Origin: Gemmatimonadota bacterium | Lineage (GTDB): Bacteria; Gemmatimonadota; Gemmatimonadetes; Longimicrobiales; Gaopeijiaceae | NCBI GenBank assembly: GCA_040882465.1 | Contig: JBBEBG010000010.1 | Coordinates: 1 to 37,841, forward strand | Reading direction: 5' to 3' | DNA: 37,841 nt | Shown: piece after piece, positions 7,703 to 18,847 of the stretch | Numbering within the stretch: position 1 is the first letter of the stretch | Layout: every line of letters starts with the position of its first letter | Program-made: the position numbers and the translations under genes | Notes under the pieces: generated by a model | The model's input: only the letters and a program-made list of their open reading frames with translations | What the model was told of the DNA's origin: nothing | Databases searched by the model: none

Positions 7703-9343
7703 CTATCCGCGGGACCTGGCGGCAGTTGGGCGTTCCGACCCGCTCGCGTTCATGCCCGCGAGTGTCCGAAGGCTCTCAATCCCCGGCATGAAGAAATACG
7801 CACCGGCCTTGGTCGTCACGAACCGACTGAGCTTCTGAAGGCGGCGGGGACCCTGTACCGTCGGGATCGTCATGCTCGCCGCGTTGGAGGGGGGGAGAGG
7901 TCCAGGGCCGGTAATGGGATCCGGGTCCTCCTGGAGCCCACCAAAAAACGGGTTATTGATCCAGGTCCTTTGTACGTGCTCGAACTGACGGGAGATGTCC
8001 GCGTTGAAGCCGAGGAAGAAGAGGCCTCGGCCGTGGGATCCCATGTCGCTCAGGCGGTTGCGGAAGTCGCTCCCCGCGAGAGGATCGGACTCGACTCCGT
8101 TGGGAAAGAGCAAGGCGGTGAGAGTCCCCTCTTCGAAAGGATTCGTCCCGTAGGTGCGCCCGCGGCGCAGGAGCCTTCGCCGATTCACGAGGTCCCGCCG
8201 CTGCGCCGGGGACTGCGGGGAATGGTCGAAGACCGTGTCGCGCGGATGCACTCGCCGTACGTGGGCGCCGAAGGGGCACCCGATGCCGCCCGCGTCCGCC
8301 GCATAGTCGAAGTCGTCGAGGTGCCGGACGGAGGTGGTCGCGAAACCCTTCATGTCGTGGAAGTAGCGCGCGATCGAGACCGGGGCCCCGTTCGGCCAGC
8401 GCCCGACCATCTTCGACGCGATGGTGACGACTTCCTGGGCGTGGGCTTGGGGATTCTGGAACTCGCCGCCGGCGTTGGACCAAGCGAACTGGAGGAAGGC
8501 CGGAACGTCCTGTTCGAGCTTCCTGGCAACGAGATAGCTCCCGTCCCGCAGGAACTGGTCCACGGGGCGATGCGCTTCGTCCGTTCGATCGAACCGCCCC
8601 CTCATCCTCATGAAGTCGAGGCCGAACAGGTTCACCTCGTCCTGATCCGGATACCCGAGGATGAATTCCCCCGGCTCGACCTCGTTCCCCTTCTCCGGAG
8701 GCCCCTGGGCCCCGCGGCTCCACCCCCGGATGGCCGGGTTTCCGAGCCCGTCCGTAAAGCCGAAGTGCTCCTTCACCCGCCCGTCCTCGGTTCGCATCGT
8801 CTCGGTGTGGCTGCGCCCCACCTCGACCATTCCTCCCTCCCGGACGGGGTGTGCGGGGTCCCAGGGCGCCGAGGCCCACTGGGGGGGAACCACGGGGTTG
8901 GGATCTATCGGGTCCGGCTCGCTCCAGTAATAAGCAAGAAGGACATCGACACGGCCTTCCCCGCCCCCCTCGCCAGCGGCAGGCCCGTCGCGCCACTCCC
9001 AATTCTCGCACGCGCCGGCACCGGTGTCACCGAGCGCCCTGGCCCTCGACGCCATTCCGACCCGGAACTCGTCCGAAAACCCTCGGTCCCGGAGGGAGGG
9101 CCGTTCCGAGAGAAGGGTACGAAGCGCGTGCGCCGTGAAGGCGATGTTGAACGCCTCGCCGGTCGGGGACCTCCTGTGGTCTGCCGTCGTGATCGAGGGA
9201 ATCCGCGACTCGAGCCACCTCCTGAATTCGCCCGGGTCGTCGATTCTCCGCAGCGAATAGGTGGCGAGGGGAAGGCGCCCGTACCCCCAAAGGACGAGCC
9301 CTTGGACGTTCTCCGCATGGATGATCTCCGGGACGCTCGTCAC
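7703..9343 (-). CDS. DyP-type haem peroxidase
   Basis: This 546-residue dye-decolourising peroxidase has the family's GXXDG motif as GFTDG (near residue 196, distal aspartate). The haem region CPFGAHVRR (near 357-362) holds the presumed proximal histidine, and LLRRGRTYG further on holds the presumed distal arginine. DyP enzymes oxidise organic substrates with hydrogen peroxide. I see no signal peptide, so it is probably cytoplasmic or membrane-associated through its partner. The start is the GTG at 9341-9343: it follows the upstream stop by two bases, and AGAGG precedes it by about 11 bases. The frame is open for another 290 codons upstream, but that part overlaps the membrane-protein gene and is shadow. 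It is somewhat longer than many DyPs, with an insertion between the His and Arg motifs. Confidence 0.9.
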   Translation of the reverse strand: MTSVPEIIHAENVQGLVLWGYGRLPLATYSLRRIDDPGEFRRWLESRIPSITTADHRRSPTGEAFNIAFTAHALRTLLSERPSLRDRGFSDEFRVGMASRARALGDTGAGACENWEWRDGPAAGEGGGEGRVDVLLAYYWSEPDPIDPNPVVPPQWASAPWDPAHPVREGGMVEVGRSHTETMRTEDGRVKEHFGFTDGLGNPAIRGWSRGAQGPPEKGNEVEPGEFILGYPDQDEVNLFGLDFMRMRGRFDRTDEAHRPVDQFLRDGSYLVARKLEQDVPAFLQFAWSNAGGEFQNPQAHAQEVVTIASKMVGRWPNGAPVSIARYFHDMKGFATTSVRHLDDFDYAADAGGIGCPFGAHVRRVHPRDTVFDHSPQSPAQRRDLVNRRRLLRRGRTYGTNPFEEGTLTALLFPNGVESDPLAGSDFRNRLSDMGSHGRGLFFLGFNADISRQFEHVQRTWINNPFFGGLQEDPDPITGPGPLPPSNAASMTIPTVQGPRRLQKLSRFVTTKAGAYFFMPGIESLRTLAGMNASGSERPTAARSRG

Positions 9344-9345
9344 GG

Positions 9346-10782
9346 CTATGTCATCCTCTTCAGGGTCATCCAGTCCTTCTCCGCGGAATCCCAACGCCGG
9401 ATTCCGATCCACCGAAGGCGCGCCAACACTCCTTCGCGCACGAGCGTGTTTCGATTGATGTGTACCGCCGGAAGGTTCGGGTAGGCCCGGAACCAGACCT
9501 GCGTCGCATGCTGGAAGGCGCGTCCAAATTCGACGAAACGCCGGACGCGCTCCCGGGCGCCCCCACGAAACACCCTGCGGGTCTGCGGAAAGCCGACGCA
9601 GTTGCTCCAGATCGCGTTCACGCCGTAGTGCGTGCCGAGGAGCGCGAAGTCGTGGAGGTAATTCTCGAATGTGCCATCGTAGTGCGAGACGAAAAGGAGC
9701 CGCCTCGGCTTCCCAATGATCGTCCAGTAACCGAAGTGAATCGTCGTGATCCCCCCGAGGTTCATCGCCCTCGCCGCGAAGAGCCGGGCCACGAGATTCA
9801 ACCAGAAGAGGACCACCCACAGGGTCCAGAGCCGGATCCACCCCGGCTTGATCGGGGCGAGATGGGTGATCTCGTTCAGCTCGGAGCCGATCTCGCGCTC
9901 CGAGGGATCCCCATCCGCCGTGTTGTCCGGAAGATAGGACGGAGGCGGCGGTTCGCTCTCGAGCTCCTGCCGTTCCTTCTCCGCGACCATCCGAAAGAGC
10001 GCGGCATGTACGATTCCGGCGACGATGAACAGGAGGGCGACCGCAGTCAGGAGGGACGAAAGTCCCAGCCGCACGGACTGCACGACACTCCCCGCATCCC
10101 GGTACGCGAGGAACGCCGTGAGTCCCGCAAGGATCGCGAGAACGAGGAGGATTTCGAGAACGGGGCGCGGCCGGATCGGGAACGCGGGCCCCCGCTTCCA
10201 GCGGCGCATCCAATCGGGAGCATCGTCATCGTTCATCCGTCGTCGAATCCAGGAGAGCGGATCCCCCACAAATCCCATCAGGGGCAACTCGAGCTCGCGC
10301 TGGATCCATGCCCATCCGGTCCGCTCGAGATCAATCTGGTCGCGAGTCCGAAGGTGAGTTCCGTTGAAGTAGAGGTTGGTGCCCGAGCTTCCCCTCCTCA
10401 CCACCTTGACGATTTGTTCCCCGCTCCAGCGATCCGCACCGGAAACGACCGCACCGTAGATCTCCCGGAGCTCGTCCTGGAGGACGGCCGCGAGCTCGGA
10501 GAGATGTTTTCGCCGCGAGCCGTCGAAGACGCTCGTGAGGAGAAGCGCGGGGCCGAAGGGCCTTCCATCACCGGCCTTCCTTGGCTCCCCGGAAGAGGCG
10601 CCGGCTTCCGGATTCTGCCGTTCTTGTAGAATCGTCCAGCGGAGGAAGTGTGTCGTGCGGAGGTTGGTGAAGGGCGCGGTTCCCGTCCGCCTATCGACCG
10701 AGGCGAGGACGGCCCGAAGCTCGTCCAACTGCACTTCGGGAATTGGGGTCACCGCGACGAAGACACGCTGACGTGTGGCCAT
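9346..10782 (-). CDS. Membrane protein with duplicated DyP-like (ferredoxin-like) domains, peroxidase partner
   Basis: This 478-residue protein has two soluble domains separated by three hydrophobic segments (about residues 211-231, 240-264 and 315-340). The two domains look like copies of one another: THFLRWTIL followed by ALLLTSVFDGSRRKHLSEL in the first, and IHFGYWTII followed by RLLFVSHYDGTFENYLHDF in the second. The H-F-x-x-W and F/Y-D-G patterns resemble the ferredoxin-like fold of DyP peroxidases, but I see no haem-binding motif. I infer a membrane scaffold or substrate channel for the DyP gene that begins 2 bp after its stop. It is the first gene of the operon and diverges from the P450 gene 142 bp away. 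Function is inferred only from context and repeats. Confidence 0.72.
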   Translation of the reverse strand: MATRQRVFVAVTPIPEVQLDELRAVLASVDRRTGTAPFTNLRTTHFLRWTILQERQNPEAGASSGEPRKAGDGRPFGPALLLTSVFDGSRRKHLSELAAVLQDELREIYGAVVSGADRWSGEQIVKVVRRGSSGTNLYFNGTHLRTRDQIDLERTGWAWIQRELELPLMGFVGDPLSWIRRRMNDDDAPDWMRRWKRGPAFPIRPRPVLEILLVLAILAGLTAFLAYRDAGSVVQSVRLGLSSLLTAVALLFIVAGIVHAALFRMVAEKERQELESEPPPPSYLPDNTADGDPSEREIGSELNEITHLAPIKPGWIRLWTLWVVLFWLNLVARLFAARAMNLGGITTIHFGYWTIIGKPRRLLFVSHYDGTFENYLHDFALLGTHYGVNAIWSNCVGFPQTRRVFRGGARERVRRFVEFGRAFQHATQVWFRAYPNLPAVHINRNTLVREGVLARLRWIGIRRWDSAEKDWMTLKRMT

Positions 10783-10924
10783 CTCAGTGCCGCTGCGCTC
10801 GACCGCCGCGTGGGGTGCGCCGGTCGCCTTGACAGGAGACCGCCCGCGGCGGAACCCTTCTGGATACGAGACCGATTCCCTCTCGAACGGTCAAGGTAAG
10901 AGCGGTCGTGCGGAGGAGGCCAGA
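10783..10924. promoter_or_regulatory. Divergent promoter region between the peroxidase operon and the P450 gene
   Basis: These 142 bp separate the starts of two divergently transcribed units, so they must hold both promoters or a shared regulatory site. I do not see a convincing -35/-10 pair. The P450 ribosome binding site (GGAGGAGGCCAG) lies at 10912-10923. Confidence 0.45.
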
Positions 10925-12253
10925 ATGAGCGGCATCTACCGGTTCCCGATCCTTCCACTTCCCTGGATCCCGAGCGCCCCGCGGAAGGATTTCCAGATGT
11001 ACGGGCGGTCGAGGCTCTTCCGCCGCATTTACCTGGTACTGCGAACCTCGGATGTCCGCGAGGTTCTCGCGAACGACTCCGGGCGAAGCGCCGCATTCTC
11101 CGTGGCCGACTACGGCGACCACATGCGCGAGACTGTCGGGGATTTCTTCCTCGGCCTGGACCAAACGGCAGGCAACAGCTACGACGTCGAGAAGGAACTC
11201 GCCCTCAAGGCCTTCCTCGCGGAGACCATACATGGGAGTGACGCCTTTGAAGCCCTTCGCGCGGACCTGACCGAGATCGTCCGGCAAGAGACGGCCGCCG
11301 CCGTCCAGTCCCTCGAAACCGTGTCCCGCAGGGAGATCGACGTCGTCTCGGACCTCGCGAACAAGGTCCCCGTACGGCTCGTCGAGCGTTACTTCGGAAT
11401 CCCGGACCGCGACGGAAGCCTCCTCCAGGACTGCCAGGAGATCAGCTTCTATATCTTCAACTTTTTTTCCGAGCTTCCCGGCATCCGCGCGCTGTTCCGC
11501 GTCAGGCGCCGCGCGAGGAAGGCGGGAGCACGACTGCGCGAAAACGTGGGACGCGAAGTGATGGAACGTTGGAAGATCCTTCGCGGCCCCTCGGGTCCGC
11601 CCCGTCCCCAACACGTCCTCGACCGGCTTCTCCTCTCCGATCCCACTCCCAAGGATGAGAAGGAGCACCTCGATCGGGTGCGCCGGACTCTCACCGGCCT
11701 GATCTCCGGAGCCCTGGTCGCGACCGTCGGGCAATTCGTCTCGGCGGTGGACCGGCTGATGGATCTCCCCGCGGACGACCGGCGGGCCCTCCAGTACGCC
11801 GCGCTCGCGGCGGCCCATCGTGGCAATCCCCGACCGCTCTGGAACCAGCTCCGCGAAGCCTCGCGCTTTGGAGCGGTCCCGCCGTTTCTCTTTCGGCGGT
11901 GCCGGCGCCCTTTCAAGATTGCCCGGGGAAGCGCGAGGGAAAAAACGGTCTTCCCGGGCGACCTCGTGGTCGTGTCGCCCATGTTCGCTGGACGCGATCC
12001 CTTCACCTTCCAGGATCCACTGGCGTTCAACCCTCTGCGCCCGGACTCCTCCTATCTGCTCTTTGGATATGGGCTTCATGCCTGTATCGGGGCCTTTTTT
12101 GGAGAGATCCTTATGGTCCAGATGGCTGCCCAGCTCTTCATGCTCCGCGGACTCGAGCGGAACCGGGAGCGTGGACGCTCCGTTTCCTACCGCGGCGCGC
12201 CACAGAGCTTCGTGCTGAATTTTCTCCCGGCCCAACCTCCACTCGGGGTCTAA
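10925..12253 (+). CDS. Cytochrome P450
   Basis: This 442-residue protein carries the haem-thiolate signature FGYGLHACIG with the ligand at Cys387 and the K-helix ExxR as EASR (E311, R314). The I-helix region reads SGALVATVGQF and lacks the usual A/G-G-x-D/E-T-T acid-alcohol pair; this occurs in P450s that use peroxide or have unusual chemistry. There is no signal peptide or membrane anchor. The ATG at 10925 has GGAGGA six or more bases upstream and begins MSGIYRFPILPLPW; the 50 codons available further upstream look like leader shadow. No ferredoxin or reductase gene is nearby, which also suggests a non-classical electron source. Its stop overlaps the stop of the convergent patatin gene. Confidence 0.9.
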   Translation: MSGIYRFPILPLPWIPSAPRKDFQMYGRSRLFRRIYLVLRTSDVREVLANDSGRSAAFSVADYGDHMRETVGDFFLGLDQTAGNSYDVEKELALKAFLAETIHGSDAFEALRADLTEIVRQETAAAVQSLETVSRREIDVVSDLANKVPVRLVERYFGIPDRDGSLLQDCQEISFYIFNFFSELPGIRALFRVRRRARKAGARLRENVGREVMERWKILRGPSGPPRPQHVLDRLLLSDPTPKDEKEHLDRVRRTLTGLISGALVATVGQFVSAVDRLMDLPADDRRALQYAALAAAHRGNPRPLWNQLREASRFGAVPPFLFRRCRRPFKIARGSAREKTVFPGDLVVVSPMFAGRDPFTFQDPLAFNPLRPDSSYLLFGYGLHACIGAFFGEILMVQMAAQLFMLRGLERNRERGRSVSYRGAPQSFVLNFLPAQPPLGV

Positions 12254-14514
12254 CAGCCGATCGGGACCGGATCCGCGTCGCGAAGCGCGGGATGGACTCT
12301 CACCCAGTACGATTTCAGGCGCGCGAGCTCGGACCGGTTCGGCTCGGTGCACCAGGTGCCGTCGATGCGCGTGCGCGCATCGTCCGTCAGCCCCCAGAAG
12401 ACCGGCCCGACAGTTTGCATGGTGAAGGCAAAGCGCTCCACCGGGATCCCAGCTGCCTCCCACTGACGCGCGAGCAGGTCCAGCTCAGCATCGTCGCGCG
12501 CCGGTTGGCTCGTGAGACTCGAGCGAAGGAGCGCCTGGACGGGGCCGGCCGTTCCCCACCACCAGGCGCGACCCGGACGGCCTTCGTCCCGCTCCCACTG
12601 CAATCCTCGGAGCTCCACGATCACCAGGCCATCCCGATCGCCCATCGCTTCGGGCCCGACCCTCCTCAGGAACTCGACGACGCTCCAGACCCCGGTGTTG
12701 TCCACGTAACCACCGTCCCCGACGTGACAGATCCGGGAATGTCCCGCAGGCCGTGACAGCGGGAGGACCCAGGGCGCCGAAGCCGAGAGGCGCACCGCCG
12801 TTCGCACGTGCAAATCGGCATTTTCATAGAGTTGGCGGAAGCCCATCGGACCGGCGCCGCATCCCTCGACCGATCCCATGTCCAGGTCCACGGGGGAAAT
12901 GACGAGCTTGGCACCCGAGGGTGCCACGATCCCGTTGAACATCGCGATCGGGCGGCGTCCCTCCCGAACGTCCTCCCGCCAGGCGTCGATCGTGAGATTC
13001 GGATCGGTCAGGACCCGGGCGCGCTCCCAACCCAGCTCGAGCGCAGAGCCGCGGTTGCGAAGCGTGTCTCCGGGGAAGAGTCCCCCACTTACCGTCCGGA
13101 GAAAGTCTGGGAACGCGAGACCCCAGGTGACGGCGGCGAGCGTCGGCGTACCCGATCGTGCCCGCAGCTCCTCGAACTCCCCGGGGCCGGGGGGCTCGCC
13201 CTCGTCGAAGGCCTCGACGTAGAGGGCGGAGCCGAGTGAGCCACCGGAATTCGCACTGATCAGGACGATGGATTTCCCGAATCCCTCGAGCTCGCCCTGG
13301 AGGGCCGTAAGGACGTAGGTCGTCCAGTACGAAGCCCCGACTCCCCCTCCGCTCGCCGCGACGATAACCGGGACCGGATGGTCTCCCGGCCCGTGGGTGC
13401 GCTCCCATGCATCGTACGCCTCCCTGGGAAGGAGAAGCGGAGCGTCCGGGCGCTCCGTCTCAACAAGCGAAAAGAGATAGTCCGCGTCAAAGACCTGGTG
13501 GAGGGAGAGTGCGATCAACACGACCCCGAGAATCACGGGTATCCGGTACCGGTCGAGGAAGAGGGCCGTGGCCGCGAACACCCAGAGGACGAGGATGCCC
13601 AGGAGAAGGAGATAGCCGAGCGCCGAGATCGCGGGTGCGATGGTAGGAAGGACCGGCACTCCGCTGTCCGGGGCGAGCAGGAGATACACGCCCATGTAGA
13701 ATGTCAGCGCGATGAGGAGGTAGGAGCTGAATCGGATCGACTTGGGGAGCCAATCGGCGAACCAGGCTTCCAGCCCCTTCCGCGCGACCCAGGCGACGAA
13801 GATGCCGGCGGACACTGCCCCGATGTTGACGATGAAGGGGCTCGGCCATACGCGAGCATGAACGTACAGAACGACCACGGCGACCGCGATCGCAATCGCG
13901 GCGACCCAAAGGAACGCGGCCCCGAAGAGGGCGCGCCTCCGGAGCGGGTACCAGGCGCGGCGTACGAGGAGGCCGACGAGCGCCCCCAGGGCGAGGGCAA
14001 ATGCGGACATCGTCGGGGCAGATACGTCCATGCGCGTCTCGCCTCGCGACTCCCCGAGCCAACTCCACCCATCCGTGGACGAGAACCAGACGACCGTGAC
14101 GAGGAGTGGAACCGCTGCGATGAGGGCAGTCGTCTGGCCGTGGCGGACCAATACCGCCACCGGGCGGTAGTGGATTCTTCCAAGAGGAACGCGGCCATCC
14201 TCTGGCAGTTTCCGAAACGGAAGACGGTGCTCCCTCTCCGCGTTTTCCCACGCGACTTCCCCGGAGAAGGCGAGGCTATGGGCGGTGAACGCCGCCAGCA
14301 CGGTCGTGGTGAAGACCTGAAGCGGGGTCAGCGTGAGGAGATTTCCGAGGAGAAGCGCCACATCGGAATCGAGGACCAGGAGTGGAGCGAGGGCGATGAT
14401 CCCGGCGAGAATCTGGAACCGCAGAAAGTAGGCGTACTGGAAAACATGGTGACTCCTGGCGAACCCGACGGCGAGGAGCCCCACGAGCGCGACTACGATT
14501 GCGATCCAGATCAT
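12250..14514 (-). CDS. Polytopic membrane patatin-like lipase
   Basis: The first 345 or so of 754 residues contain about eight to ten hydrophobic segments (for example MIWIAIVVALVGLLAVGFA and IPVILGVVLIALSL). The C-terminal part is a patatin-like acyl hydrolase: glycine-rich oxyanion loop ASGGGVGASYWT (near 388), nucleophile elbow ISANSGGSLGS with the serine near 422, and catalytic Asp in GDGGYVDN (near 600). Patatins cleave acyl esters of phospholipids by a Ser-Asp dyad. The membrane domain should place the enzyme at the inner membrane beside its lipid substrate. Transcription is towards the P450 gene and the stop codons overlap (12250-12253). The ribosome binding site is weak. The family call is firm; the substrate is unknown. 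Confidence 0.87.
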   Translation of the reverse strand: MIWIAIVVALVGLLAVGFARSHHVFQYAYFLRFQILAGIIALAPLLVLDSDVALLLGNLLTLTPLQVFTTTVLAAFTAHSLAFSGEVAWENAEREHRLPFRKLPEDGRVPLGRIHYRPVAVLVRHGQTTALIAAVPLLVTVVWFSSTDGWSWLGESRGETRMDVSAPTMSAFALALGALVGLLVRRAWYPLRRRALFGAAFLWVAAIAIAVAVVVLYVHARVWPSPFIVNIGAVSAGIFVAWVARKGLEAWFADWLPKSIRFSSYLLIALTFYMGVYLLLAPDSGVPVLPTIAPAISALGYLLLLGILVLWVFAATALFLDRYRIPVILGVVLIALSLHQVFDADYLFSLVETERPDAPLLLPREAYDAWERTHGPGDHPVPVIVAASGGGVGASYWTTYVLTALQGELEGFGKSIVLISANSGGSLGSALYVEAFDEGEPPGPGEFEELRARSGTPTLAAVTWGLAFPDFLRTVSGGLFPGDTLRNRGSALELGWERARVLTDPNLTIDAWREDVREGRRPIAMFNGIVAPSGAKLVISPVDLDMGSVEGCGAGPMGFRQLYENADLHVRTAVRLSASAPWVLPLSRPAGHSRICHVGDGGYVDNTGVWSVVEFLRRVGPEAMGDRDGLVIVELRGLQWERDEGRPGRAWWWGTAGPVQALLRSSLTSQPARDDAELDLLARQWEAAGIPVERFAFTMQTVGPVFWGLTDDARTRIDGTWCTEPNRSELARLKSYWVRVHPALRDADPVPIGC

Positions 14515-15563: not shown

Positions 15564-15728
15564 CTAGTGTCCCGTCGCGGAAGTTCGTTGAGCACCGAGG
15601 GTACCGATGCGCCGCGCCGGCAAGGCGCGACGACGAGGAGTAGCAGGGCTACTTCGAGGAGGAGCAACGCTGCCGGGGCGGATGCAGCGGCGCACGAATG
15701 CCAACGAACTTCCGGGACGGGACACTAG
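15564..15728. mobile_element. MITE-like element, 165 bp
   Basis: Terminal inverted repeats of 27 bases (26 matching) begin CTAGTGTCCCGTC at both ends, reading inward. The interior has two further hairpins (CGCGCC/GGCGCG at 15613-15629 and AGTAGC/GCTACT at 15639-15653) and no gene. The CTAG ends include a possible TA target duplication, as in IS630/Tc1-mariner-type elements; no transposase is in the window. It ends 35 bp before the next gene. Confidence 0.8.
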
Positions 15729-15763
15729 CTCGCTCACGCGCACCTGAGGCGCGAAGTCCCACG

Positions 15764-18700
15764 ATGCCCTGGCCGAAGCCCCGCAACTCGGAGCGCACGC
15801 GACTCCTCGCGATGATGGGGCTCTACTTCCTCGTCCTCTTCGCGGTGGGGATCCTGAAGCCGATCCGGAACGCGCTCGCGCTCGACGGACTCGGGGAGAG
15901 CGAATTCTACAAGGTCTACCTCGTCAGCGCGGTCGTCATCCTGCTTGCACCGGCATTCAATCACCTGTCCGACCGCATTCCGTGGCGCACGCTCATTCCC
16001 GCGACAGCCGCCTTCTTCGCCGCGAATCTGTTCTTGTTCCGCGGCATCTACTCCGAAGGGAGCGCGGCGTTGGGCATGGTCTTCTACGGTTGGTACGACC
16101 TGTTCGCTGCGGCCCTCGTCACACAGTTCTTCATGGCGGTTCAGGTATTCTTCAATGCCCGGGACGCCAAATCTGCGGTTCCGCTCGTCATCGCCGCCGG
16201 CTCCTGTGGCGCCACCCTCGGTGGACTACTGACCGGCCTGATGGCCCAGAGGATCGGCACCCCTAACCTGATCCTCGTGGCGGCCTTTTTCGTCGGGTTT
16301 TTCGCAGTGGGATTGCCCTTCGTCTGGACAGGATACCCAACCGTCCGGCGGCCCGGGCGCAGGGTGATAGGGAGTGGAGCCGGAGGAGTTCGGTTCGTGA
16401 TCGAAGACTTCGTTCGCGTCTTCTCTCATCGTCACGTTCGACTCATCGCCGGGCTCGTGCTGGCCACGGTCATCGTGAAGACCCTCGTGGATTACGAGTT
16501 CAACGAGGCGGTGGCCGCGCACGCCGGAGATCGAGATGCCATCAGCTCCTTCCAGGGCTACGTCTTCGGCGCGATCAACTGGCTCCCGATCGTGATCCTG
16601 CTTCCGCTCGGGCCCCTCCTCAAGCGATGGGGCGTGGGGTTGGTGGTCCTCATGCTCCCGCTCGCCATGCTCGGATTCACCGTCGCGCTTGCCACCGCGT
16701 TCAGCGTATGGACGGCAACGCTCGCGAAGGCGGGCGACTCCACCTTCCGCTATTCGGCGGAACGGACGGGACGGGAGATCCTGTACGTCCCCGTCCCGAC
16801 TGAGCTCAAGCTCAGGGCGAAGGCGTACGTGGACATGGCATTGGAGAAGGGGTTCGGAAAGGCGTGCTCGGGACTTCTGATTCTCGTCCTACTGGCATTC
16901 ATGGACTACAGACGCATCGCCTGGGTGGCAGCAGCTCTTGCCGCCATATGGTGTGTCATGGCGGTCGCCGCGAACCGCGAGTACGTGAGGGCCTTGGCGA
17001 CGGCGATCCGGAGCCGATTCTCGACGCTCGAGGTTGGAGTCGCGTCGCTGACGGAGCGAAGCGCGCTCGCGATGGTGGGGAAAGCGCTCCGCGGAGATAC
17101 GGTCCAGGTGAGCTTCGCGCTCGATCTCGTGGAAGAAGCGGGAAGCGTGGACGCCGGGCATCTCGGGGCCGATCTCCAGCGACTCATGGATCACTCCGAT
17201 GCGGACGTGCGATCGCGGGTCCTGCGCCTCCTCACCCGCTTTCCCGGGCTGATCCCCGACGACGTCGTTCGACGGCGGCTCGGCGACGAGGACGAAGCCG
17301 TCAGAAAGGCTGCCGTGGGCGCGCTGGCGGCCCGATGCTCGGAAATAGCGGCGCGCGAGGAACTCCTGCGAGGGCTCCTCGAGTCCGACGATTGGGGAAC
17401 CCGATGTGCGGCTTTGAGTTGGCTCGCCGACGAGGATGAGGACATGGATATGACCGAGCGGCTTGGGGCCTTCAGAGTCGCCGCGCTCCATGCAAACGGA
17501 GCCGTTTCGGAGCACCCGTCGGCAGCCCGTCGGGAATTGGCGCTCGCCCTTGGCCTCGGGCCGCCCGGTTCCATGCCGGCCCGCATCCTCGCGCGTCTCA
17601 TGGACGATCCGGACGCCGCGGTGGCGAGGTCGGCGGTGCGAAGCGCGGGACGCCTGGGTGCCGTCCAGCTTCGTTACTCACTCATTTCGAAGCTCGGCGA
17701 CCGCTCGCTTCGGGGGGAGGTCCGAGCTGCGCTGGTAAGAGTCGGTCCCGATGTCGTCGAGAGTTGTGTCGCACCCATGCGTGATCCGGCCGTCCCCATG
17801 GCGATTCGGCGGAGCCTCGCGTCCGTGATCGGGCTCGTCGACTCGGACCGGTCGGTGCGGGCTCTGATGGAGATCGTGTCCGATCGGAAGATCGACCGTG
17901 AGGTCCGATTCCACGCGCTCAAGGCGCTGAACAAGTTCCGCGCGCGAAATGGGACGATGCGCCTCGAGCCGAGCGATGTACTTTCCGCGATTGATGTGGA
18001 GATCCAGGAAGCGGAGCGATACTCGGACTTCCTGTCGATCCTCGATGGCGCACCTGCGGAAGCCCGGACGGTTCGACTTCTCCGGACCGCCCTGCGCGAG
18101 TCGTGGAGGGACCGGAGGGAGGCGGTATTTCGCTTGCTGGGGCTGGTCTTCCCCCACGACGAGATATATCGTTCGCACTTCGCACTCGTAGGAGATGACG
18201 ATCGAGCGCGCGCCAACGCGACGGAGTGGCTGGAAAGAACGCTCGGACATCGGTTCTTTCAGCACGTTGGGTCCGTCATCCCCGGTGAGCCGACCCCGGA
18301 CGCTAGCGAAGTGCAGCGGGACTGGTCTGCAGTTCTGAACGATCTTGGAGGCGACCGGGACCCTTGGATGGCAAGCGTCGCCACATGGGCCCGCGACGAG
18401 ACAAGATCGCAGCGCGAAGGGGGAGGGAGCGGGGCCATGGATCTCATCGAGAAGCTCTTCCTTCTCCAGAAGGTCGATCTCTTGCAGGAAGCCCGGAGCA
18501 CGCATCTGGGTCTCCTCGCCTCCATCGCGGAGGAGCTCGACGTGGACCGGGGAGACGTGGTCCTCCGCCCCGGTGAGCCGAACGATGCACTTTATGTCAT
18601 CGTCCGGGGATCCGTGGAGTTGAGCGGGGTGGGCGACGAGAGGCTCGAGCTCGAAGCCGGCACGCCATTCGGAACCTGGTCGCTTTTCGATGCCGACCCG

Positions 18701-18847
18701 AGCATGATCGGCGCGAGGGCTCTCGAGCCCTCGCGTCTCCTGCGCGTGACGCGGAGCGACTTCCAGGATCTCCTCGGGGACCACCCCGAGCTCGCCACCG
18801 GCATCCTCCAGGCGCTGGCCCGGCGAATGCGGTCCCTCGTCGCATAG
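15764..18847 (+). CDS. ADP/ATP-carrier-like transporter fused to HEAT repeats and a cyclic-nucleotide-binding domain
   Basis: This 1,027-residue fusion has three parts. Residues 1 to about 410 form a polytopic transporter of the NTT/TLC (Npt1/Npt2-like) type, starting LYFLVLFAVGILKPIRNAL, a typical first helix of this family. Residues about 434-780 are HEAT-like helical repeats (DADVRSRVLRLLTRFPG, DEAVRKAAVGALAARC). Residues about 895-1025 form a cNMP-binding-type domain (VVLRPGEPNDALYVIVRGSVEL). Classical NTT proteins exchange ATP/ADP across membranes in intracellular bacteria; in free-living bacteria the fused forms have no known substrate. I chose the ATG at 15764, after the MITE; the frame runs back to an ATG at 15698, but that part lies in the MITE repeat. 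Confidence 0.88.
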   Translation: MPWPKPRNSERTRLLAMMGLYFLVLFAVGILKPIRNALALDGLGESEFYKVYLVSAVVILLAPAFNHLSDRIPWRTLIPATAAFFAANLFLFRGIYSEGSAALGMVFYGWYDLFAAALVTQFFMAVQVFFNARDAKSAVPLVIAAGSCGATLGGLLTGLMAQRIGTPNLILVAAFFVGFFAVGLPFVWTGYPTVRRPGRRVIGSGAGGVRFVIEDFVRVFSHRHVRLIAGLVLATVIVKTLVDYEFNEAVAAHAGDRDAISSFQGYVFGAINWLPIVILLPLGPLLKRWGVGLVVLMLPLAMLGFTVALATAFSVWTATLAKAGDSTFRYSAERTGREILYVPVPTELKLRAKAYVDMALEKGFGKACSGLLILVLLAFMDYRRIAWVAAALAAIWCVMAVAANREYVRALATAIRSRFSTLEVGVASLTERSALAMVGKALRGDTVQVSFALDLVEEAGSVDAGHLGADLQRLMDHSDADVRSRVLRLLTRFPGLIPDDVVRRRLGDEDEAVRKAAVGALAARCSEIAAREELLRGLLESDDWGTRCAALSWLADEDEDMDMTERLGAFRVAALHANGAVSEHPSAARRELALALGLGPPGSMPARILARLMDDPDAAVARSAVRSAGRLGAVQLRYSLISKLGDRSLRGEVRAALVRVGPDVVESCVAPMRDPAVPMAIRRSLASVIGLVDSDRSVRALMEIVSDRKIDREVRFHALKALNKFRARNGTMRLEPSDVLSAIDVEIQEAERYSDFLSILDGAPAEARTVRLLRTALRESWRDRREAVFRLLGLVFPHDEIYRSHFALVGDDDRARANATEWLERTLGHRFFQHVGSVIPGEPTPDASEVQRDWSAVLNDLGGDRDPWMASVATWARDETRSQREGGGSGAMDLIEKLFLLQKVDLLQEARSTHLGLLASIAEELDVDRGDVVLRPGEPNDALYVIVRGSVELSGVGDERLELEAGTPFGTWSLFDADPSMIGARALEPSRLLRVTRSDFQDLLGDHPELATGILQALARRMRSLVA

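Follow-up and report, generated by a model that had tools for sequence, protein, structure and literature searches.

Among the closest described systems to the gene set reported here are the fungal fatty-acid dioxygenase-P450 fusions (LDS, EAS and AOS; PMC13049297), in which a heme peroxidase-type enzyme is combined, and often fused, with a P450 that isomerizes fatty-acid hydroperoxides and, as a feature of its own, needs no reductase. In corals, the AOS-LOX fusion (PMC5617202) pairs a catalase-related protein, of a kind that acts on fatty-acid hydroperoxides, with another heme or lipid-oxidizing enzyme, and in Nostoc, as far as it is cited in PMC13049297, a catalase-related lyase goes together with the oxidizing companion 10S-DOX. 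This work addresses a gene set of a Gemmatimonadota bacterium (assembly GCA_040882465.1), carried on positions 1 to 37,841 of contig JBBEBG010000010.1, a stretch of 37,841 nucleotides that we call the window. The set joins a DyP-type peroxidase, a 478-aa membrane protein referred to as the partner, and a cytochrome P450. The oxidase is a cyclooxygenase-like dioxygenase in the fungal fusions, and a lipoxygenase or dioxygenase in coral and Nostoc, whereas here it is a DyP; the P450 families also differ from the fungal ones, and the fungal fusions have no membrane barrel partner. Apart from the partner, every component falls into a known superfamily, and in its logic the set is similar to the known dioxygenase-P450 pairs. 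No description of the DyP-partner-P450 association was found in the open-licence papers that were searched.

The DyP, partner and P450 almost certainly constitute a real functional module. Scanning genome contigs with the partner alignment gave 80 loci; adding the window and four more from genomes of relatives brought the set to 85 (one contig is present twice, as L009 and L021). As these loci were fetched by the partner, the frequencies among them are conditional on it. In an all-against-all comparison of their open reading frames (ORFs), blind to function, the DyP came up in 80 loci; the partner family was recognized in 64 of them and a single P450 family in 31, and no other family was nearly as frequent. 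By profile search, the DyP stood beside the partner in 84 of the 85 and the P450 was present in 33. In the larger tally, 40 loci spread over seven phyla carry a P450 of the subfamily (Bacteroidota, Pseudomonadota, Myxococcota, Armatimonadota, Acidobacteriota, Actinomycetota and Gemmatimonadota). The module genes are directly adjacent on the same strand, with the P450 ahead of the partner or behind the DyP. Among 200 Gemmatimonadota genomes, 11 carry the DyP, and the same 11 carry the partner on the same contigs; the three P450s that score above 350 bits against the subfamily all lie beside a partner, the next best P450 reaching 129. The preliminary description had placed DyP, partner, P450 and a membrane-embedded patatin in one joint neighbourhood, to be given up if their homologues seldom neighboured one another. 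For the first three genes the opposite was found, by linkage, fusions, parallel phylogenies and the near-exclusive linkage of the P450, and they recur together across phyla, while the membrane patatin of the window drops out of the set.

Gene fusion and phylogeny point in the same direction. ORFs were read from the raw contigs, so that every fusion rests on a single open frame. Partner and DyP are fused in genome G180 (L002/L010), in Aquimarina (L019 and L091) and in L150, L152, L153 and L154; DyP and P450 are fused in an Acidobacteriota (L083, 957 aa) and in L158 (1021 aa); and in Litchfieldella (L078) the DyP is fused to a catalase-like domain, so that fusion is found both here and in the coral AOS-LOX. 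Since the fusions recur in separate lineages, assembly error is unlikely. The head-to-head layout of P450 and partner-DyP in the window is repeated in four relatives of the phylum (L150-L153), in three of which partner and DyP are the fused pair just listed, the fourth (L151) having them adjacent at a contig end. On a quick DyP tree, which has several weak deep branches and a long branch for the window DyP, no fewer than 13 changes of the P450 label are required when well-supported branches alone are counted, so gain or loss of the P450 has happened many times over in these phyla. The distance matrices of DyP and P450 correlate with r 0.83, those of DyP and partner with r 0.85, and all pairs among the three within 0.74-0.85; none of 2000 permutations was as high, and shared species history contributes to these values.

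The peroxidase of the window had been recognized as a DyP in the preliminary description, and the family match bears this out. It matches NCBIfam TIGR01413 with E 3.8e-25 (88.9 bits, below the cut-off of 100.5), Pfam Dyp_perox_C with 22 bits (above the cut-off of 20), and DyPs of the PDB down to E 6.5e-29 (7anv). An alignment of 38 homologues shows no variation at its catalytic residues, which are D198 (the Asp of GFxDG), the proximal His361 and the distal Arg393/394, and heme binding and peroxidase activity are predicted from its sequence. By sequence it falls in the same family as the long (D/V type) DyPs 7anv, 8re3 and AnaPX (5c2i), which share the catalytic Asp, His and Arg. Two further DyPs were observed. 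In genome G032, a second DyP of the family (L184:8488-9972, minus strand) has no detectable partner beside it, which was seen nowhere else in the genomes sampled from the phylum, and in a Modestobacter metagenome-assembled genome (L048) a second DyP lies on the opposite strand, 2766 bases downstream of a P450-partner-DyP set. The long DyPs have been studied as single enzymes, and none is known with such a partner and P450. Most DyP peroxidases have no established natural function, and dyes are not known to be their substrates in life.

The partner matches no Pfam or NCBIfam family above its cut-off. Its two repeats align with each other (hhalign 99.83%, E 5e-30), hydrophobic stretches lie at about 203-251, and the AlphaFold model (pLDDT 83, pTM 0.85) packs the repeats around a hydrophobic helical pair. 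By AlphaFold, VIA and hhalign, the two ferredoxin-like units close into one barrel. The closest structural match is WhiE-ORFI (9lmn; VIA Z 14.2, root-mean-square deviation 4.3, 222 residues aligned, 9% identity), a tandem ABM-like barrel that likewise has two ferredoxin-like repeats per chain; the partner differs from WhiE-ORFI in its gene surroundings and in the membrane hairpin that separates its repeats. A polyketide decarboxylase (Z 11.1) and sulfur oxygenase reductases (Z 6-7) follow, with a DyP at just Z 3.2. On the model, the repeats belong to the dimeric alpha+beta barrel (ABM-like) class. Homology to DyP was considered and finds no support in profile comparison (hhalign probability 1.3%), so that of the earlier idea of a membrane protein with DyP-like repeats, the duplication and the hydrophobic stretches stand and the kinship to DyP in sequence falls; the likeness is one of broad fold class only. 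H349, W353, S366 and D369 are invariant in the family alignment. In some Gemmatimonadota (L011, L012, L158, L159 and L181-L183), the partner consists of one or two separate single-repeat proteins, soluble in L012, L158 and L159; this suggests an origin of the 478-aa form from two soluble units that became linked. An AlphaFold model of the L019 partner-DyP fusion was of poor quality (pTM 0.59) and was set aside.

The P450 gives way in some lineages to an unrelated heme protein. Nine loci contain a catalase-like protein, 40 contain the P450, and none contains both; we read the P450 and the catalase-related protein as alternatives in one slot. The catalase-like profile matches the mycobacterial catalase-related MAP-2744c with E 2.8e-9, the coral AOS with 6.9e-8 and true catalases with 7e-5, which places these proteins nearer to coral AOS and MAP-2744c than to catalase, and catalase-related hydroperoxidases are the nearest PDB entries among those found. 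The proximal R-x-x-x-Y motif is invariant. The distal position, read from the alignment by hand, holds His in four of eight proteins and Asn or Gln in the rest, a difference from the coral and Nostoc systems.

The P450 itself, queried as 10922-12253, matches Pfam with E 4.6e-7 and is the only P450 found by Pfam in its genome, which is 3.53 Mb and nearly complete. The thiolate Cys388 and the ExxR residues (E312/R315) are invariant in 21 aligned rows. Its I-helix reads GALVATVGQF, which contains no acid, and so lacks the acid-alcohol pair of an O2-activating monooxygenase; most family members read GAVDTT. Across 33 subfamily P450s, the position is D/E-T in 24, E-P in three and without acid in six, the pair being lost in nine members (the window P450 and eight others). 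The preliminary description had noted the lack of the usual pair and suggested peroxide use; the lack is seen in the window protein, and the I-helix argument for peroxide use as a property of the family finds no support, since 24 of 33 relatives keep the pair. It was also rightly noted that no redox partner adjoins the gene, and no redox-partner family was found among the recurrent neighbours of the module loci. As to membership in the CYP74, CYP152 or LDS types, the comparison covered the PDB, where the best matches are general bacterial P450s; a likeness of the I-helix to the fungal LDS motif ANQXQ was dropped, because the alignment shows GAVDTT in most relatives. At Methylomonas loci, including L023:7819-9909, a glutathione S-transferase domain is fused to the N terminus of the module P450, giving a single chain of about 697 aa.

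Lipid hydrolases join the module at some loci. The 754-aa protein of the window, described earlier as a membrane-embedded patatin, is patatin-like. It has some nine hydrophobic segments, its C-terminal match to the patatin domain (E 2.9e-4) scores 21.5 bits against a Pfam cut-off of 27.7, and NSGGS and DGG can be read in its sequence. Its subfamily was not found at other module loci, and as a conserved module part it was rejected: the module loci and 101 genomes of the phylum gave two weak matches, with no module part beside them. Patatins of another subfamily (PF01734) directly adjoin the module in Archangium (L042/L043, patatin-partner-DyP-P450) and in L181 (patatin-partner-DyP-hydrolase-P450), and L063 (partner-DyP-P450-patatin), with Ser and DGG motifs, is the best explanation of a third patatin match among the tallied neighbours; their hosts are Archangium, an Armatimonadota and another Gemmatimonadota. 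The hydrolase between DyP and P450 in L181 and L182 has a lipase-like GVSMGG motif and no Pfam match. A P450 is present in all five of these loci and in the window, and in the first 85 loci the four that bear a patatin are all among the 33 with P450 (probability near 0.02, counted post hoc).

We propose, with a probability of about one half, a heme module that is anchored to the membrane and acts on hydroperoxides of lipids or fatty acids, of which we infer the chemistry and substrate, the anchoring and topology, and the order of reactions. The lipid-hydroperoxide reading follows mainly from the alternation, in that two unrelated heme proteins, each with hydroperoxide-acting relatives, interchange beside the same DyP; indirect support comes from the adjoining patatins, the lipase-like hydrolase and the AOS-related catalase-like protein in the P450 slot, and we hold a lipid hydroperoxide as the substrate to be an evenly balanced proposition. 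The partner would hold the DyP at the cytoplasmic face of the membrane, with the hairpin between its repeats entering the bilayer, a role as carrier that is drawn from DyP and P450 both being without a hydrophobic segment. For the DyP, a peroxide would serve as oxidant or substrate, probably the hydroperoxide of a lipid or fatty acid. The second heme enzyme, P450 or catalase-related hydroperoxidase according to lineage, would convert this hydroperoxide or the product of the DyP, and would do so with no reductase dedicated to it. Where present, a patatin or lipase may release the acyl chain from a membrane lipid. Several points weigh against this proposal. P450 and catalase-like protein are both missing from about half of the loci, a patatin or lipase occurs in a minority of them, and the distal His is absent from half of the catalase-like proteins. 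In sequence and profile, the P450 is similar to general bacterial P450s, and the 24 of 33 with the acid-alcohol pair could be ordinary O2 monooxygenases with a distant redox partner. Lipoxygenase and animal-type heme peroxidase (An_peroxidase) were undetected in the window genome, in a search whose control also matched nowhere.

A second explanation differs mainly in purpose and is possible, with the odds against it: partner and DyP may serve oxidative-stress defence by repairing membrane lipid hydroperoxides, with P450, catalase-like protein, patatin and glutathione S-transferase as optional helpers and no specific product. The patchy distribution, the patatin and glutathione S-transferase companions and the alternating catalase-like protein would fit this, but the strict DyP-partner pairing and the one conserved P450 subfamily suggest a defined reaction, and stress regulators were not seen among the recurrent neighbours. 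Rather unlikely, in our judgement, is an ordinary P450 monooxygenase that hydroxylates a hydrophobic metabolite with ferredoxin and reductase encoded elsewhere, while DyP and partner clear or exploit the peroxide of uncoupling. Such an enzyme would explain the retained D/E-T pairs and the typical bacterial profile, and the fused glutathione S-transferase domain of Methylomonas would suit detoxification; the missing redox-partner family, the catalase-related protein in the same slot and the nine lost pairs speak against it. Improbable is the partner as key enzyme, an ABM-like cofactor-free oxygenase or isomerase with a conserved His and Asp-Gly per repeat as active sites and a DyP that supplies activated substrate, perhaps in secondary metabolism; the partner's ABM-type top matches (WhiE-ORFI, polyketide decarboxylase), invariant residues and soluble single-repeat forms are set against a lack of recurrent polyketide or other biosynthetic genes nearby, and likeness of fold is no proof of function.

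In the window, the four genes lie where the preliminary description had put them (Table 1). P450 and patatin are tail to tail, their stops overlapping by 4 nt, and with the P450 divergent from the partner and convergent with the patatin, a single operon is possible only for partner and DyP, perhaps with the regulator. The 836-aa ORF of the DyP is over-extended, as is typical in high-GC DNA, and the start in the table was set by homology. Relatives of the regulator, AAA-TPR proteins, occur at 11 other loci of the module; nine loci, none of them with a P450, have a kinase-ATPase-TPR family close to the module. PADLOC found no defence-system match among the window proteins. A search of viral structures returned no match. 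Farther along, at 15698-18847 on the plus strand, a 1049-aa protein combines a membrane part that resembles MFS / ATP-ADP translocases with HEAT repeats and, at its C terminus, a cyclic-nucleotide-binding domain.

Table 1. Features of the module region in the window.
Feature	Position	Strand	Remarks
Regulator with BTAD / TolB-like / AAA_16 / TPR, 1299 aa	3786..7685	-	start 18 nt past DyP stop; membership uncertain
DyP-type peroxidase, 546 aa	7703..9343	-	GTG start at 9343, 2 nt past partner stop
Partner, 478 aa	9346..10782	-	two ferredoxin-like repeats forming one dimeric alpha+beta barrel (model), hydrophobic hairpin between
Intergenic region between partner and P450 (divergent genes)	10783..10924	.
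Cytochrome P450, module subfamily	10925..12253	+	ATG 10925 is the best start; divergent from partner
Membrane patatin-like protein, 754 aa	12250..14514	-	convergent with P450; probable accessory

In the module, a single DyP subfamily is linked with a membrane partner that no family model covers and with a single P450 subfamily, which gives these DyPs a concrete and testable physiological setting. In its boldest and most tentative form, the lipid-hydroperoxide proposal would amount to a bacterial oxylipin or lipid-peroxide machine in which a DyP, fixed to the membrane by a barrel, replaces the lipoxygenase or cyclooxygenase, hands its product to an interchangeable P450 or catalase-related isomerase, and receives its acyl chain from a patatin; that such a machine would be unlike any described is offered with equal reserve. 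Natural fusions such as DyP-P450 are candidate single-chain biocatalysts, and the module is a possible bacterial counterpart of the eukaryotic dioxygenase-P450 and catalase-related oxylipin enzymes.

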